This document shows positions 3,154-18,777 of a DNA stretch of 50,463 bases, piece by piece. Within the stretch, counting starts at the first letter, position 1. Every line of letters begins with the position of its first letter. The notes under the pieces are model-generated. The model ran no database searches and was not told the DNA's origin. It saw only the letters and a list, made by a program, of their open reading frames with translations. The DNA comes from a virus. A program made the translations under genes and the position numbers. The stretch spans positions 1 through 50,463 of IMG/VR virus record IMGVR_UViG_3300038548_000551; one strand, given 5' to 3'.

Positions 3154-3373
3154 GCTCCAGCCGGGGTGGGTCGCCTTCTTCCAGGATGAGGTGCGACGGG
3201 CGGAGATCCAGACGCTGATGGCGCTGCTGAAGTGCGAGGCCTGGCAGGCGATCGTGGTCCACCAGGCGATCGTGGGAGCGGTGTCGCATATCGAGGTCCA
3301 TGAAGGCCCGGAGCGGGATGAGGAGGACGACTGGGGGCCCGGAGTCAAACCAACCAACGAGGAGGCACCATGA
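3131..3373 (+). CDS. Hypothetical protein, about 80 aa
   Basis: The ORF ends with TGA at 3371-3373, overlapping the next ATG. A TTG at 3131 is the best visible start, giving 80 residues; the conserved-looking part begins at SELQPGWVAFFQDEVRR. The middle is helical (IQTLMALLKCEAWQAIVVHQAIVG) and the tail acidic (EGPERDEEDDWGPG). No family was recognised and the start is uncertain. Confidence 0.5.
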   Translation: MRPAGPSELQPGWVAFFQDEVRRAEIQTLMALLKCEAWQAIVVHQAIVGAVSHIEVHEGPERDEEDDWGPGVKPTNEEAP

Positions 3374-3960
3374 TCGACCAGTGGCCGGCGACCTTTCCGA
3401 CCGAGCTCCAGCAGAAGCTGGGCCAGACCCTGCTGATCCCTGCGATGACCAGCTGGCCGGAGGGGGTGCCGCTGATGACGGCGCCGGAGGTGGAGGCGGT
3501 GGCCCGTCCGCTGATCGGAGCGTTCCACCCGGGCCTGGCCAACGCCCAGATCGCGTTCCTGTTCCGGGAGGACATGCAGACCCGGGAGCGGGCGGTGTGG
3601 GGCAAGGCCATGAAGGCCAGCGCCCGGCTGAAGCTGTTCGGCAAGATGGACTTCACCATCGACATCAACTGGACGGTGTGGAGCGGGCTGGGGATCCATG
3701 CCCGGGCGGCCCTGGTCGACCACGAGCTCCAGCACTGCTATCTCGAGGACGACGGCCGCGCGACGATGATCGGCCACGACCTCGAGGAGTTCGTCACGAC
3801 GGTCCAGCGCTGGGGCCTGTGGCGGCCCAGCATCGAGCTGATGGCCACGGTGATGCCGCGCCAGGGGGAGCTGTTCGACGGCGACGGCCAGGAAGCGGAC
3901 ACGCCGGTGGCGGACCCGGTGGGTGAGCCGGCGGAAGCCCAGCCGGCGCTGGTGCCATGA
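3370..3960 (+). CDS. Putative phage metallopeptidase
   Basis: A 196-residue protein with ATG start and GGAGG about nine bases upstream. It contains MDFTIDINWTVWSGLGIHARAALVDHELQHCYLEDD. The VDHELxHC segment is the zinc-binding (D/H)ExxH motif of the small phage putative-metallopeptidase family, preceded by its usual beta strand. The C-terminus is a Pro/Ala/Glu-rich tail. Such proteins are common in phage accessory regions; the substrate is unknown and host proteins are the inferred target. It overlaps the next gene by four bases. Confidence 0.8.
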   Translation: MIDQWPATFPTELQQKLGQTLLIPAMTSWPEGVPLMTAPEVEAVARPLIGAFHPGLANAQIAFLFREDMQTRERAVWGKAMKASARLKLFGKMDFTIDINWTVWSGLGIHARAALVDHELQHCYLEDDGRATMIGHDLEEFVTTVQRWGLWRPSIELMATVMPRQGELFDGDGQEADTPVADPVGEPAEAQPALVP

Positions 3961-4390: not shown

Positions 4391-4595
4391 TGCCCTGACG
4401 GCCCTGACGGCCGGCCTGGACGACTACGTGGCGGGGGTCGATAACGAGGACGCGACGTTCAAGACGTTCCATTCCTCGATCCTGTCCGACCGACTCCGGC
4501 CGCACGTGGAGAAGGCGCTCCGGGCGGCGCTGCTCGAGATCGGCCTCGGGGTGACGGTGACCACAGACGAGCCCGGGCCCGAGGTGGTATCGTGA
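4356..4595 (+). CDS. Hypothetical protein, 79 aa
   Basis: A 79-residue acidic, mostly helical protein with ATG start and GAGGTG a few bases upstream. Visible segments are VPEGQWADALTALTAGLDDY and LRPHVEKALRAALLEIGLGV. It ends in a GTGA overlap with the next gene. No family was recognised. Confidence 0.6.
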   Translation: MILHVPEGQWADALTALTAGLDDYVAGVDNEDATFKTFHSSILSDRLRPHVEKALRAALLEIGLGVTVTTDEPGPEVVS

Positions 4596-4849
4596 GCCCG
4601 GCGCTCGAGTTCATGGGTGGGCCGCTGGACGGCAAGGCGGACTTTGCGACGCCGGAGGGCCAGCGCGAGTTTCACCTGGCCGTCTGGGTGCCGGAGCCGA
4701 TGCAGATAGGCAAGGTGGCCGAGGCCACGTCCGTGGGGCCCTGCCGGCGGATCGTCCACCAGTACCTGCTGGGTGGGTTCTGCCGCTGTACGCCGGAGAA
4801 GTACGACCACGAGCCGGTGTGGGAATACTACGGGTGCTGGGCGGAATGA
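4592..4849 (+). CDS. FxGGPLDG-type small phage protein
   Basis: An 85-residue protein with GTG start in an overlap with the previous stop. It opens with LEFMGGPLDGKADF, the F(M/H)GGPxDG motif found at the start of many small phage and plasmid proteins of unknown function. It ends with aromatic residues (YDHEPVWEYYGCW), as those proteins often do. Likely a conserved accessory protein; mechanism unknown. Confidence 0.65.
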   Translation: MSPALEFMGGPLDGKADFATPEGQREFHLAVWVPEPMQIGKVAEATSVGPCRRIVHQYLLGGFCRCTPEKYDHEPVWEYYGCWAE

Positions 4850-5133
4850 TGGAGCGCCGGGAGTTCGTGGGGTCCATGCTCGCCCTGTTCACCGGGGTGG
4901 CCATGCCCGAGCCGGTCCGGGAGCTGGTGTGGGTCCAGGATCCCTGGATGCCGCCCAACAACCTCCTGATCTCCGAGGACGTGCTCAAGCGGATCTACTG
5001 CGAGCCGATCATGGCCGCGTTCGCCCCGAGCCAGGCGGAGGTCAACAAGATATTCGCCGGCGCGGTCGAACACTGGGACACCGGCGGCGGCCGGTACGTG
5101 GAGATGGCTCACTACTTCGAGCTCGGAACCTGA
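4846..5133 (+). CDS. Tat-leader protein with capsid-protein-like body
   Basis: A 95-residue protein in an ATGA overlap (a second ATG follows at 4849). The N-terminus is ERREFVGSMLALFTGVAMP: twin Arg, Phe and a hydrophobic stretch, a convincing Tat-type signal. Residues about 44-92 align by eye with residues 49-97 of the capsid protein at 17332. They share LK.I(F/Y)..(D/E)P, then E...IF, then TGGR(F/Y)(I/V)EMAHYF. The reading is a secreted or membrane-held piece of capsid N-domain. The next gene has the same leader on a different body. Function is unknown. Confidence 0.7.
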   Translation: MMERREFVGSMLALFTGVAMPEPVRELVWVQDPWMPPNNLLISEDVLKRIYCEPIMAAFAPSQAEVNKIFAGAVEHWDTGGGRYVEMAHYFELGT

Positions 5134-5474
5134 TGCAACGACGCGACTTCCTGGGATCCATGCTGGCGATCTTCACGGGCCTGGCCCTGCCGGCGCCCGT
5201 GCGGGACCAGATCCAGGTCTTCCAGTGGGACGACCTGACGCCGGGGGTGTTCTTCGGGGGCGGAAAAGGGGGCGGGAAGTCGGACGCCTATGTGTCCGTG
5301 TTCCGGCAGTATTACCAGCTGGGCATCACCCCGCGGAATCGGGTCATCCTGTCAGGCCTCGTGGAGCCAACACAGTCGGTGAAGGTCGCACAAGGGCAGG
5401 GCGTGATTAGCCTTGCGGCTGCTCCACCGGGGAGCGTGGTGAGCGTTCCGGCTGCTGCGGGGATCTGGGCATGA
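5133..5474 (+). CDS. Tat-leader protein with terminase-like Walker A segment
   Basis: A 113-residue protein starting in a TGATG overlap. Its leader MQRRDFLGSMLAIFTGLALP is nearly the same as that of the preceding gene. Residues about 39-59 read VFFGGGKGGGKSDAYVSVFRQ, matching residues 31-52 of the phage's own large terminase (LFYGGAKGGAKSDALLFKSLRQ). No Walker B motif follows; the tail (VISLAAAPPGSVVSVPAAAG) is low complexity. An active ATPase is unlikely. Co-occurrence with the capsid-like partner suggests a paired role in the envelope, which is an inference. Confidence 0.65.
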   Translation: MQRRDFLGSMLAIFTGLALPAPVRDQIQVFQWDDLTPGVFFGGGKGGGKSDAYVSVFRQYYQLGITPRNRVILSGLVEPTQSVKVAQGQGVISLAAAPPGSVVSVPAAAGIWA

Positions 5475-6160
5475 CGCCCTGGCCGCCGGTCCGCATCGGG
5501 GCGGTCATCGGGATCGGGCTGCTGGGGATCTACGCCCTGGGCCGGTGGGAGGCCCGGGTCGACGCCGGTGACGCGGCCCTCGAGGCCCAGACCCGCACCG
5601 TGCTGGCCCAGGCCCGGGTGTCCCGGGTGCTACGTGACTCACTGCGAGAGGTAGAAGATGCGCTCCTGCTCCGAGACCAAGAGATTGCCGATGCGACGGC
5701 GAGGCATCGGCGATCGCTTGCGGCGCTGGTGGAGCAGGGTCGTCGCGAGGTGGAGGAGCTCGAGGTACAGCCAGTGGACAGTCTGCTGCGTTCACTGCGG
5801 ATGCGGCCGATTCGAGTATCACCCGACACCACTCTCTATGCCACGGACTCCAGCGGGGTCGTTGTACTGGCCCGTGGGATGCTGCGCCTTCACCAACTTG
5901 ACCGACAGCGTGTTGTCCTCGACTCTCTGGCTGCTGCCGATGCGACCCGGATTGCGGGGCTTGTCCTGGTCGTCGCCACCGCCCGGCTACGTGCTGATAC
6001 TGCGGAGTCGGATCTCGAGGTCTCCCAGGCCCTCCTCGAGGGGTGGCTAAACCGCTCCCAATGTAGAATCCTGTGGCTCATTCCGTGTCCATCCCGGACG
6101 GTGACGCTGCTGGTGGGCGTCGCGGCCGGCGGTGTGGCCATTCTCGTGCTGAAGGAGTGA
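5471..6160 (+). CDS. Spanin-like membrane coiled-coil protein
   Basis: A 229-residue protein starting in an ATGA overlap. An N-terminal hydrophobic helix (IGAVIGIGLLGIYAL) is followed by a long charged helix with heptad-like spacing, then a mixed region and a C-terminal hydrophobic segment (TVTLLVGVAAGGVAILVL). CRILWLIPCPS precedes this last helix. Two terminal membrane helices around a periplasmic-size coil would suit a one-piece spanin, and it lies just before a holin-like gene. No sequence motif proves the role. Confidence 0.55.
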   Translation: MTPWPPVRIGAVIGIGLLGIYALGRWEARVDAGDAALEAQTRTVLAQARVSRVLRDSLREVEDALLLRDQEIADATARHRRSLAALVEQGRREVEELEVQPVDSLLRSLRMRPIRVSPDTTLYATDSSGVVVLARGMLRLHQLDRQRVVLDSLAAADATRIAGLVLVVATARLRADTAESDLEVSQALLEGWLNRSQCRILWLIPCPSRTVTLLVGVAAGGVAILVLKE

Positions 6161-6164
6161 GCCC

Positions 6165-6449
6165 ATGCCCAGCCAGCCACCACGGCCCTCGAATGGCGGC
6201 ACAGCGGTGCGGAAGGCGGTCGCCGGCCTCGAGCCCTGGCAGCGCCGGCTGCTGTTCAGCGTCGGCGCGGTAGCGTTCCTGCTCCCGATCCTCGATCACC
6301 TGGTCAACGAGATCATCCGGGGCCAGACCGGCAACATGACGCTGCTCCATGTCATCAACGATGGGACGTTCCTGTTCGCTGGCGTGTTGGGGATGATCCC
6401 GCCGATCGCCCTGCGAATAGCCGACAAGCTGCTGAGCTGGAAGCGGTAA
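6165..6449 (+). CDS. Holin-like small membrane protein
   Basis: A 94-residue protein with two hydrophobic segments (LLFSVGAVAFLLPILDHLV and FLFAGVLGMIPPIALRIA) and a basic C-terminus (LLSWKR). Size and two-helix topology fit a class II holin, which opens the inner membrane at lysis. It sits between a spanin-like gene and the large terminase. No endolysin was recognised next to it, so the role is inferred from topology only. Confidence 0.5.
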   Translation: MPSQPPRPSNGGTAVRKAVAGLEPWQRRLLFSVGAVAFLLPILDHLVNEIIRGQTGNMTLLHVINDGTFLFAGVLGMIPPIALRIADKLLSWKR

Positions 6450-6452
6450 CCG

Positions 6453-7991
6453 ATGCCAGCCGAGCTCCAGGACGGCGAGGAGCTCTACTGGGAGCCGAAT
6501 AGCGAGCCGCAGGCGGCTTTCTGCGCGGCCGAGGAAGACGAGCTGTTCTACGGCGGGGCCAAGGGGGGCGCCAAGTCCGACGCCCTGCTGTTCAAATCGC
6601 TGCGCCAGGTCAACCTCTCCCGCTACAAAGCCCTGATCCTGCGCCAGACGTTCGGCGAGGTCCAGGAGCTGATCGACCGGTCGCACCGGGTCTTTCCCCA
6701 CCTGGCCAACGGGCCGGAGTGGTCCGGGACGCTCAAGCGCTGGGTCTTCCCCAACCCGCGGACCCAGACCGGGGCCGGCGGGGCGATCGTCCAGTTTGGC
6801 CACTGCAAGCGCAAGGAGGAGGTCCAGCAGTTCCACGGCCAGGAGTGGGCCTACATCGCGTTCGATGAGATCGCCGATGTGGCCGACGAGCAAATCTGGG
6901 TGCGGCTCCAGGCGGAGAATCGGTGCCCGAATCCGGAGGTCAAACGCCAGCTGGCCGGCTCGGGCAACCCGGGCAAGGCCGGCCATCCCTGGGTGAAGCG
7001 CCGCTTCATCGACAAGTGCGGGATCGCCGGCGACAAGATTTACCACGAGGACATCAACGTGCCGGGTCTGGGGACGGTCACCCGGTCCCGGCGTTTCATT
7101 CCCGCCAAGGTCACCGACAACCCGGTCTACGCCTCCGACCCGATCTACATGGCCAACCTGCTGTCCCTGCCGGAGGTGCTCAAGCGCCAGCTGCTCTATG
7201 GCGACTGGGAGGCCGGGTTCGGCATGGGGCTCGAGGAGCTCACCGAGGGCATCCACATCGTGACGCCGTTCGACGTGCCGGAGCACTGGCGGATGTTCGG
7301 GGCCTTCGACTGGGGTTTCCAGCATCCCTGGGTGTTCGGCCTGTACGCCATCAACGAGGACGGGGTCATCTACAAGATCGACACCATCCGGGGCCGGTGG
7401 ATGAGCGATCGCCGGATTGCGGAGCGGATCAAGCACTGGGTGGACATCGACCGGCTGAGCTACGTGACCGCCGGCCACGACTGCTGGGCGGAGTGGAAGG
7501 CCCGGCGCGACGACACCACGCCGTCGACGGCGGACCGGTTCTCCGAGGTGGGGATCCACCTGACCCGGGCAGCTACGGGCCGGCATGCGGGGCTCAAGAA
7601 TTTCCGGGAGCAGGTGGCCTGGAAGGAGATCATGCCGGGTGAGCCCGGCGAGCAGGAGGACGGTGAGCCCAATTTCTTCTGGATGGACACCCCAGGCAAC
7701 CGGAAGGCGTTCGAGTCGATCGCCACCATGGTGGTGGATGAGGATGACCCGGAGGACGTGCTCAAGCAGAACGCGGACCCGGTCACCGGCGAGGGGGGCG
7801 ATGACGACTACGATGAGACCCGCTACGCCCTGGCCAGCCGGCCGGCACGGACCATGCCCACCTGGACCGAGCAGGACGTCCGGGCGTGGTCTCCGGCGGT
7901 CCTACACTACGAGCGAGAGCAGCACCGGCGCCACAGTTCCATCGTGGTGCGGCGCACACGCATCGGTCACCAGGACATGGGGGGCTACTGA
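6453..7991 (+). CDS. terL: Terminase large subunit
   Basis: A 512-residue packaging motor. The ATPase half has the Walker A segment FYGGAKGGAKSDA at residues 32-44 and the Walker B segment YIAFDEIAD at 134-142, followed by GSGNPGK near 167. The nuclease half has FDWGFQHPWVFGLY near 284, GHDCWAEW near 340 and DDDYDETRYAL near 450, giving the expected acidic residues of the RNase-H-like cutter. It threads DNA into the prohead through the portal (13539) and cuts it. No neighbouring small subunit was identified with certainty. Confidence 0.95.
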   Translation: MPAELQDGEELYWEPNSEPQAAFCAAEEDELFYGGAKGGAKSDALLFKSLRQVNLSRYKALILRQTFGEVQELIDRSHRVFPHLANGPEWSGTLKRWVFPNPRTQTGAGGAIVQFGHCKRKEEVQQFHGQEWAYIAFDEIADVADEQIWVRLQAENRCPNPEVKRQLAGSGNPGKAGHPWVKRRFIDKCGIAGDKIYHEDINVPGLGTVTRSRRFIPAKVTDNPVYASDPIYMANLLSLPEVLKRQLLYGDWEAGFGMGLEELTEGIHIVTPFDVPEHWRMFGAFDWGFQHPWVFGLYAINEDGVIYKIDTIRGRWMSDRRIAERIKHWVDIDRLSYVTAGHDCWAEWKARRDDTTPSTADRFSEVGIHLTRAATGRHAGLKNFREQVAWKEIMPGEPGEQEDGEPNFFWMDTPGNRKAFESIATMVVDEDDPEDVLKQNADPVTGEGGDDDYDETRYALASRPARTMPTWTEQDVRAWSPAVLHYEREQHRRHSSIVVRRTRIGHQDMGGY

Positions 7992-8877: not shown

Positions 8878-9123
8878 GTGCCCGAACGCCTCGCACCCCG
8901 GGCCCGGTTCACCACCATGCAGAAACTGGTGGCTATCCTGGTCGGTCGAGGCCAGAGCTACGATGAGATTGCCGGCCGGCTCTCCGTGAAGCGCTCCACG
9001 ATCAAATACCACGCCGAAAACGCCGCCGCGAAGCTGCCGGGGGTGGATCCCCCTCGCATGAAGCTCACCATGTGGTGGCGCCACGCCACCGAGGAGCAGA
9101 TGTCCCCCCGCTCGGAGCGGTGA
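8878..9123 (+). CDS. LuxR-type helix-turn-helix protein
   Basis: An 81-residue protein whose GTG start follows the previous stop directly. MQKLVAILVGRGQSYDEIAGRLSVKRSTIKYHAENAAAKLPG is a near-complete LuxR/GerE or sigma-region-4-like HTH: the SYDEIAGRL helix, turn at SV, and recognition helix KRSTIKYHAENAAAKL. There is no sensor domain. It could control late genes, or it could be a DNA-binding small terminase, as it lies between terL and the virion genes. The sequence alone cannot decide. Confidence 0.65.
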   Translation: MPERLAPRARFTTMQKLVAILVGRGQSYDEIAGRLSVKRSTIKYHAENAAAKLPGVDPPRMKLTMWWRHATEEQMSPRSER

Positions 9124-9182
9124 CCAGAGCGCAGAACCCCACCTAGCTTGGCCTCGACCCCACCGACTCGAGGAGCTCCACC

Positions 9183-17331: not shown

Positions 17332-18777
17332 ATGCTGAAGCTCACACCGGGCTTTTCGCGATTTCTGCTCGGGGCGCTGGTACTCGTTGCAGCCTTCCTG
17401 GTTCCCGAGGTGGCTTTGGGAGCGGGGCCGATTCTGTTCGGCATGGCGGGCGATACCACAGTCACCGACGACATCGACGAAGCCCTCAAGATCATCTTCT
17501 CGGATCCGCTCATCAACAACATCGTTGAAGACACCGAGCTGATGGACATTTTCAAGGTCGACATGAACGTCCAGGCCGACGACACCACGGGCGGCCGGTT
17601 CATCGAGATGGCGCACTACTTCCGGCTGCCGGCCGGCGTGGGTGCTCGAGCGGAGAACGAATACATCCCCGAGCCCGACGATCCGCGATTCGTGAACAGC
17701 CGGCTATTCCTCCGCAAGCTCCAGGGTACGGTCGAGATGACCGGTGACGTCATGCGTCGGGTACGCTCCGACGAGGGCGCCTTCCTGAATTACATGGAGC
17801 GGGCGCTGCCGGATCTGGTCACTCGGTTGGTCAACGAGATCGACCGTATGTACATCTCGGACGGCTCGGGCATCAAATGCCGGATCGCCAGCATCTCCGG
17901 CGCTGCCGGCGTCTACGACGTGGTCATCAACCGCACCTACGGCATCGACGGCCTGACGGCCTCCTTCCTCCAGTTCATGGAAGGCGAGCGCATCGTGGCG
18001 GATCCCGCCGCGGACGGTCAGTCGCTCCGGTCCAACGGTGCGATCTTGTCGGCGCAGGTCACCGACATTGACGAGGAAACCAGCACTCTCGAGGTCACGG
18101 GCGACGACACGTTGCTCGCCTCGTGGGCCCCGGATGACTACATCTTTTCCGGTGATGACGCCGGCCAGTCGACCAACACGGCCGCTGGCGAAGACCGCGA
18201 AATTGCTGGCCTCCTGGCCGGTGATGACGACGGTGGCATCATCGCCACCTACAACAACATCGACCGCACGGCCTCCGGCAATCGGCTCTGGAAGTCCATC
18301 GTCATCGACTCGGATGTCCCGCAGTGGGGCGGCCAGATGACGGAGGAGCTGCTCACGTTCTCCGACGACCAGGTGACCGTGAAGGGCGCGGGGCGCATCG
18401 ACACGCTGGTGATGTCGCGCTCGGCGAACCGGGGCTATTGGCAGTCCCTGAAGGGCGATCGGACGATGATCGACCCCCGCAGTTTCACCGGGGGCAAGGC
18501 TGGAACCTCCGTGCTCTTGGGTGATCGCACCCTCGACCTCAAGGTATCGCGGAAGCTGCCGCCCGAGCTGTCCTTCGGGCTGCAATCCGACACATGGCGC
18601 CGCATCACCTTGGGCACGTGGGAGTGGGATGACCGGACCGGCTCGATCTGGAACCGGGTGACCGACTCGGTTGGTCGCAAGGATGCGTTCTTCGCGGTGG
18701 GCAACATGTACGAGCAGCTGTTCTGCATGGCGCCCCGGAAGAATTTCCGGTTGGACAACATCACGGCGGTGTTCTAA
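17332..18777 (+). CDS. Major capsid protein with signal-like N-terminus
   Basis: A 481-residue protein. ATG at 17332 is chosen because GGGAG lies about seven bases before it; a GTG at 17302 has no ribosome site. Residues 1-31 read as basic start, hydrophobic core FLLGALVLVAAFLV and an ALGAG end, just like a secretion signal. The capsid region follows: IDEALKIIFSDPL, TTGGRFIEMAHYFRLPAG, VEMTGDVMRRVRSDEGAF, ALPDLVTRLVNEIDRMYISD. Position after the scaffold and content support an HK97-fold shell protein. A downstream in-frame ATG at 17443 would remove the leader. Confidence 0.85.
   Translation: MLKLTPGFSRFLLGALVLVAAFLVPEVALGAGPILFGMAGDTTVTDDIDEALKIIFSDPLINNIVEDTELMDIFKVDMNVQADDTTGGRFIEMAHYFRLPAGVGARAENEYIPEPDDPRFVNSRLFLRKLQGTVEMTGDVMRRVRSDEGAFLNYMERALPDLVTRLVNEIDRMYISDGSGIKCRIASISGAAGVYDVVINRTYGIDGLTASFLQFMEGERIVADPAADGQSLRSNGAILSAQVTDIDEETSTLEVTGDDTLLASWAPDDYIFSGDDAGQSTNTAAGEDREIAGLLAGDDDGGIIATYNNIDRTASGNRLWKSIVIDSDVPQWGGQMTEELLTFSDDQVTVKGAGRIDTLVMSRSANRGYWQSLKGDRTMIDPRSFTGGKAGTSVLLGDRTLDLKVSRKLPPELSFGLQSDTWRRITLGTWEWDDRTGSIWNRVTDSVGRKDAFFAVGNMYEQLFCMAPRKNFRLDNITAVF

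Follow-up and report, generated by a model that had tools for sequence, protein, structure and literature searches.

A short gene that joins a twin-arginine leader to a fragment of a major capsid protein (MCP) was found upstream of the terminase gene in the virus record IMGVR_UViG_3300038548_000551 (50,463 bases; labeled G000 among the compared records and referred to here, at its full length, as the window). This gene, A (positions 4846 to 5133, plus strand; 95 amino acids), is followed by a second gene, B (5133 to 5474, plus strand; 113 amino acids), with a similar leader and a body of unproven origin; both of the tandem open reading frames in the original prediction are thus present. The A start overlaps the stop of an 85-amino-acid gene (4592 to 4849, plus strand; phrog_1619, of unknown function, with an E value of 0.051 only) in the letters ATGA, the A stop and the B start overlap in TGATG, and the B stop shares another ATGA with the start codon of the gene that follows. 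This following gene (5471 to 6160, plus strand) encodes a 229-amino-acid protein that by look resembles an inner spanin, having a hydrophobic N-terminal stretch and a long charged region after it, and the one library family that it matched is phrog_31826 (virion structural protein; E value, 0.056). A holin-like small protein of 94 amino acids (6165 to 6449, plus strand), named by look alone and with 0 matches in PHROGs and Pfam, and the terminase large subunit, TerL (6453 to 7991, plus strand; phrog_979; E value, 1.4e-36, with matches to named phages as well), lie downstream. On the best explanation, the A and B genes are accessory, coupled to each other, and placed upstream of spanin-like, holin-like, and terminase genes. 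Elsewhere in the window, a putative phage metallopeptidase (PF18894; E value, 1.3e-21) is encoded at 3370 to 3960, where the phrog_513 label is transposase, and a tRNA-Arg (ccg) was predicted at 9066 to 9152 on the minus strand, with the late genes on the opposite strand.

The MCP of the window (17332 to 18777, plus strand; 481 amino acids from its ATG) was identified through phrog_14242, a major head protein (E value, 1.1e-24), and a 14-sequence alignment. When A was searched against its own genome, it matched the MCP at 17476 to 17628 (plus strand; E value, 7.7e-6; 41% over 50 amino acids), and a profile of 14 MCPs, its own included, gave residues 45 to 94 of A a score of 26.9 bits, which 0 of 2,000 shuffles of the body reached. 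The MCP-like stretch, residues 45 to 95, lies at 4978 to 5130 on the plus strand. Among 43 window proteins the MCP stood out with a z score of 13.2, the runner-up having 2.3, and the DNA of A and the MCP agrees at 83% over 42 nucleotides (E value, 1.2e-6). MCPs of relatives were matched as well, in 6 of 8 records in one search and 9 of 10 in another. The capsid match originally proposed for the first body is borne out, and on these sequence comparisons the A body is shown to derive from an MCP. A spans positions 6 to 56 of the 437 in the MCP profile, and a full-length HK97-type fold with P and A domains was not found in it; judged by its sequence, A is an MCP fragment and not an MCP. We take the matched stretch to be the N-arm and the first conserved E-loop motif, naming these domains from general knowledge of the HK97 fold because the predicted MCP model was too poor for the purpose (AlphaFold2 mean pLDDT, 42.6 for the MCP and 41.6 for A). 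A had no match in Pfam (E value up to 1) or PHROGs (E value up to 10) and one chance match among named phages, a Klebsiella tail assembly chaperone (E value, 7), and no solved structure matched the MCP profile at an E value up to 1.

Codon comparisons bear on the source of the A body. A and its own MCP use the same codon at 15 of 17 identical residues, where codon usage in five window genes predicts 9.8 (P = 0.0046), while 11 other MCPs share 9 to 13 codons with A among 16 to 18 identical residues. The body was therefore most likely copied from the MCP of its own lineage, although the codon argument for the own MCP is not overwhelming, as the MCP of G017 has 13 of 17 codons in common with A. 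The A body differs from its own MCP with pN and pS both at 0.33, whereas comparison of the window MCP with those of G003, G004, G005, and G017 over the same codons gives a pN of 0.02 to 0.05 and a pS of 0.30 to 0.46. The equality of pN and pS in A, against the low pN among MCPs, speaks for relaxed or altered constraint, and neither decay nor fast adaptation of the A body is excluded; since pS is damped by a GC3 bias (near 0.9), a pN/pS ratio of about 1 is only weakly indicative of drift. A retains 14 of the 20 residues that are invariant among 11 MCPs, compared with 7 of the 30 others (one-sided P = 0.0013), and the reading frame of A is intact, with a GC3 of 0.95. The decayed duplication that had been offered as an alternative is in keeping with a body that is seemingly a fast-diverged MCP copy but not with the intact frame, the GC3, the overlaps with neighboring genes, and the preferential retention of invariant residues.

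The body of B resembles two assembly proteins and is accepted as a fragment of neither. Its P-loop-like tract, FFGGGKGGGKSDA (5250 to 5288, plus strand; 13 codons, located by DNA comparison with TerL), shares 10 of its 13 residues and 30 of its 39 nucleotides with the window TerL, and the DNA match of B to TerL (78% over 41 nucleotides; E value, 0.002) is the second best of the A/B region within the window. Among the 43 window proteins TerL was the best match to B (z score, 8.2), with the gene at 4592 at 4.6 and the MCP at 4.5. Against a profile of 13 TerL sequences B scored 7.8 bits over 17 amino acids (17 of 502 positions), and against the C terminus of the MCP profile it scored an equal 7.8 bits over 50 amino acids, 0 of 2,000 shuffles reaching the score in either case; smaller profiles gave 10.3 bits for 6 MCPs and 9.3 bits for 5 TerL sequences, one row of the latter being a wrong-strand open reading frame. 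In a genome search covering G000 to G008, B matched the MCPs of relatives with E values of 1.1e-5 at best versus 0.002 for TerL, and in its own genome TerL (0.002) and the MCP (0.004) were close. When the P-loop was masked, TerL dropped out of the seven best matches and the MCP came third, behind two unrelated genes. TerL phrog_979 was matched in PHROGs with an E value of 0.45 only, and Pfam returned nothing for B at an E value up to 1. At residues identical between B and TerL the codon is the same in 6 of 10 by hand count, with no sign of recent copying.

Given the masking result, the equal 7.8-bit scores, and the PHROGs E value, homology of B to terminase is not established by sequence. The candidate reading of B as a proven terminase fragment was rejected because the match is carried by the P-loop, and that of a proven MCP C-terminal fragment was rejected for the same weakness under masking, despite the E value of 1.1e-5 to the MCPs of relatives. 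B ends about 60 residues past the P-loop tract, and neither a Walker B motif nor a nuclease domain was found in it, as the original prediction had stated for Walker B. Its proposal that the second body is the Walker A region of TerL keeps the likeness of the P-loop itself, and its broader proposal of one leader joined to pieces of two assembly proteins stands for the capsid piece in A and not for a terminase piece in B.

The leaders of A (4846 to 4938, plus strand; about 31 codons) and B (5133 to 5219, plus strand; 29 codons) had been described as a shared, nearly identical twin-arginine leader, and a protein search confirmed that they are shared, with 60% identity over 30 amino acids. Over 29 codons they have a dN of 0.24 and a dS of 0.89, by which they look maintained by selection; their sequences show that the two leaders are homologous and constrained. 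A Tat-like leader has an RR motif followed by an uncharged hydrophobic run, and by this rule, which is no trained predictor, the leaders qualify, with 15 uncharged residues in A, 18 in B, and 15 in a similar protein of the related phage G008. For N-terminal hydrophobicity, B ranks sixth and A eighth among 45 window genes. No clear signal-peptidase site (A-x-A) is evident by eye in A or B, so the leader may remain as an anchor. An outer-spanin lipobox cysteine was not found after either leader, as B contains no cysteine and A has just one, at position 52 within the body. The A leader is unlike that of the MCP, with 325 of 1,000 shuffles scoring as high.

Related phages were gathered by TerL and MCP scans; A and the G008 protein were searched in G000 to G018 and B in G000 to G008. 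Eleven phages have at least 2 kb of sequence before TerL (the window, G002, G003, G006, G008, G010, and G012 to G016), and an RR-leader gene was found before TerL in two of them, as two genes in the window and as one in G008. No second record among those examined shows two such genes. The original prediction took absence of the pair from every relative as a refutation, and by that yardstick the relatives compared here refute a conserved two-gene system; the arrangement is a lineage-specific fusion. The Tat scan is strict and misses the leader of the contig L087, so absence in relatives is not proof. The single gene of G008 has the same leader in the same place and an unrelated body. Its match to B extends to residue 59 of 133, but a comparison restricted to the two bodies scored 28, where shuffles averaged 24.6 (219 of 1,000 as high), and the G008 protein has no P-loop tract. 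Recurrence of the leader with another body suggests that the leader is the shared unit and that the bodies are changeable. As a candidate MCP piece the G008 protein was rejected: 1 of 1,000 shuffles in the pairwise comparison and 2 of 2,000 in the profile comparison scored as high, but the protein ranked fourth among 561 open reading frames of its own record (z score, 4.1).

Scans of IMG/VR with A alone and B alone returned no relative. A leader-specific pattern found G008 only, in a scan that may not have covered the record of the window itself, and two looser RR-leader patterns found 14 and 2 stretches, among which the small RR-leader genes on L075 (an 8,227-bp contig) and L087 (6,760 bp) were judged true. 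In the L087 gene the leader is followed by LWTPSRTFFLPPAGGW, and an open reading frame that resembles a terminase by eye lies about 1.1 kb farther downstream. PHROGs gives no capsid family for the RR-leader proteins of L075 and L087, and a supposed general class of RR leaders joined to capsid pieces in many phages was rejected on that result. Among named phages neither the G008 protein nor the L087 leader protein had a match. A profile built from A, B, and the G008 protein, run on 395 genomes from the G017 phylum, found G017 and, weakly, two others (E values, 0.001 and 0.002), and an MCP profile run on 395 genomes matched G017 and G018 only. G017 is a contig binned in a Gemmatimonadota assembly and is at least 99.9% identical to G008 in the pieces compared; because it is the same phage as G008, the link to a Gemmatimonadota host is suggestive only, on sequence identity. 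At 60 kb, the contig, G017:C31, is longer than the 50-kb G008 record and agrees with it throughout the pieces compared; a circular or redundant assembly would account for this better than a prophage would.

The MCP carries a leader of its own, which may matter more than A and B and is the more promising lead. A signal-like start of about 35 to 40 residues is present on the MCPs of the window, G003, G004, G005, G017/G008, and the more distant G018, whereas eight sister MCPs in the 14-sequence alignment begin directly at the conserved part. The leader lies at 17332 to 17442 (plus strand) in the window, where it precedes an internal ATG at 17443, and at L006:10010, L007:4301, L008:6766, L058:10010, and L059:9962 in the others. 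With a hydrophobicity of 2.71, the N terminus of the window MCP is the most hydrophobic of 45 window genes (median, 0.77), and the five other MCP leaders have values of 1.99 to 2.75. A ribosome-site-like stretch was found by motif scan 10 to 14 nucleotides before the leader ATG in five of six cases (GGAGAC in the window), with GAGAG in G018 seen by eye only. The internal ATG of five phages has, by eye, no ribosome site at a usable distance, and G018 has no internal ATG in that region; because the scan was also blank before three of five sister MCP starts, the ribosome-site evidence is not decisive by itself. As annotated, the leader is absent from the MCPs of two named relatives, an Arthrobacter phage and a spring metagenome phage (the two examined among nine). 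A literature search among open-licence papers found no phage MCP with a signal peptide, and in the passages of PMC10975493, PMC11437467, and PMC9658991 that concern a signal peptide it belongs to proteins other than the MCP. The MCP leader bears on where tailed-phage capsids assemble, and it makes a membrane link of A less far-fetched.

Our tentative preference, held at somewhat less than even confidence, is that A is a membrane-tethered capsid fragment that acts on assembly and that B is a sister leader protein. The Tat-like RR leader would carry the products of both genes to the inner membrane, and A, anchored there by its leader, would display part of the capsid N-arm. Capsid subunits touch one another through N-arms and E-loops, so a fragment of this type could nucleate assembly, hold it back, or spoil it; A might bind capsid subunits and, acting late, hold or time assembly near the membrane or spoil the capsids of a close competitor. 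The signal-like leader of the MCP in this subclade would point to the membrane as the meeting place, one that capsid subunits would also visit. Against the tethered fragment we count the absence of the pair from the relatives, the equal pN and pS of the A body, the limits of the codon argument, the poor structure models, the unlikeness of the A and MCP leaders, and the fact that neither B nor the G008 protein has a proven relation to an assembly protein. Nearly as likely is a young fusion on its way out, in which a leader gene underwent tandem duplication, one of the copies was fused to an MCP fragment, and the body is drifting while selection acts on the leader or the translational coupling only. 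The equality of pN and pS, the absence of the pair from every relative examined, and an A body that stops two residues past the conserved stretch all speak for such a fusion, but the intact frame, the GC3, and the preferential retention of MCP-invariant residues speak against it, and the damping of pS makes the pN/pS value weak evidence for drift.

The conserved leaders and differing bodies would also suit a possible lysis role, in which the weakly hydrophobic RR segment is the active part (through insertion, timing, or aid to the spanin-like and holin-like neighbors) and the bodies are exchangeable. In the window the pair is followed immediately by the spanin-like and holin-like genes, and in G008 the leader gene lies close to such genes; the lysis helper gp25 of phage Mu has, in the passages of PMC9239132 that describe it, an RR or Arg-Lys motif beside a membrane segment, in reversed order. 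We nevertheless consider this unlikely, as A and B have no lipobox and no match to a lysis family in Pfam or PHROGs, the neighbors are named by look only, and relatives with similar neighbors lack the leader genes. Less likely again is a lineage that builds its capsid at the membrane, with a signal-type leader on the MCP and a Tat-type leader displaying the N-arm piece as an anchor, timer, or poison, possibly against close competitors. Very improbable is the display by one leader of both capsid and terminase pieces as decoys against related phages: the match of A to the MCP is solid, and TerL is the best match to B in the window and in PHROGs and agrees with it in DNA, but the TerL likeness is that of the P-loop alone, the MCP C terminus equals it in score, the shared codons give no sign of recent copying, and the G008 protein convincingly carries neither piece. 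At the least, the locus is a case, confined to one lineage, of a small leader gene that captured part of a structural gene; should A be produced and arrive at the membrane, a phage protein would there present a piece of its own capsid as a self-derived decoy or anchor, for which the search of open-licence papers matched no described phage system.

Several known systems offer partial likenesses. The Mu gp25 protein (releasin), a small membrane protein of the lysis region, shares with A and B a small size and an arginine pair next to a membrane segment as described in PMC9239132, but the order of motif and segment is reversed and the likeness is one of description. Of the PHROGs families, phrog_14242 is represented by the window MCP, whose N-arm and first E-loop motif the A body matches, but A covers a small part of the MCP profile and matches no family itself; the P-loop of B agrees with that of the window TerL, a phrog_979 member, but the match takes in few of the TerL profile positions. 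Tat signal peptides share with A and B the RR motif near the N terminus and the run of 15 to 18 uncharged residues, but A and B show no clear cleavage site by eye, and the usual Tat cargo is a folded enzyme, whereas that of A is a capsid fragment. In animals, restriction factors of the Fv1 type are capsid-derived proteins that act on capsids, and in phage T4 prohead assembly starts at the membrane. Although neither is a phage fragment with an export leader, the proposed A would have in common with the former a capsid-derived actor on capsids and with the latter an assembly begun at the membrane.
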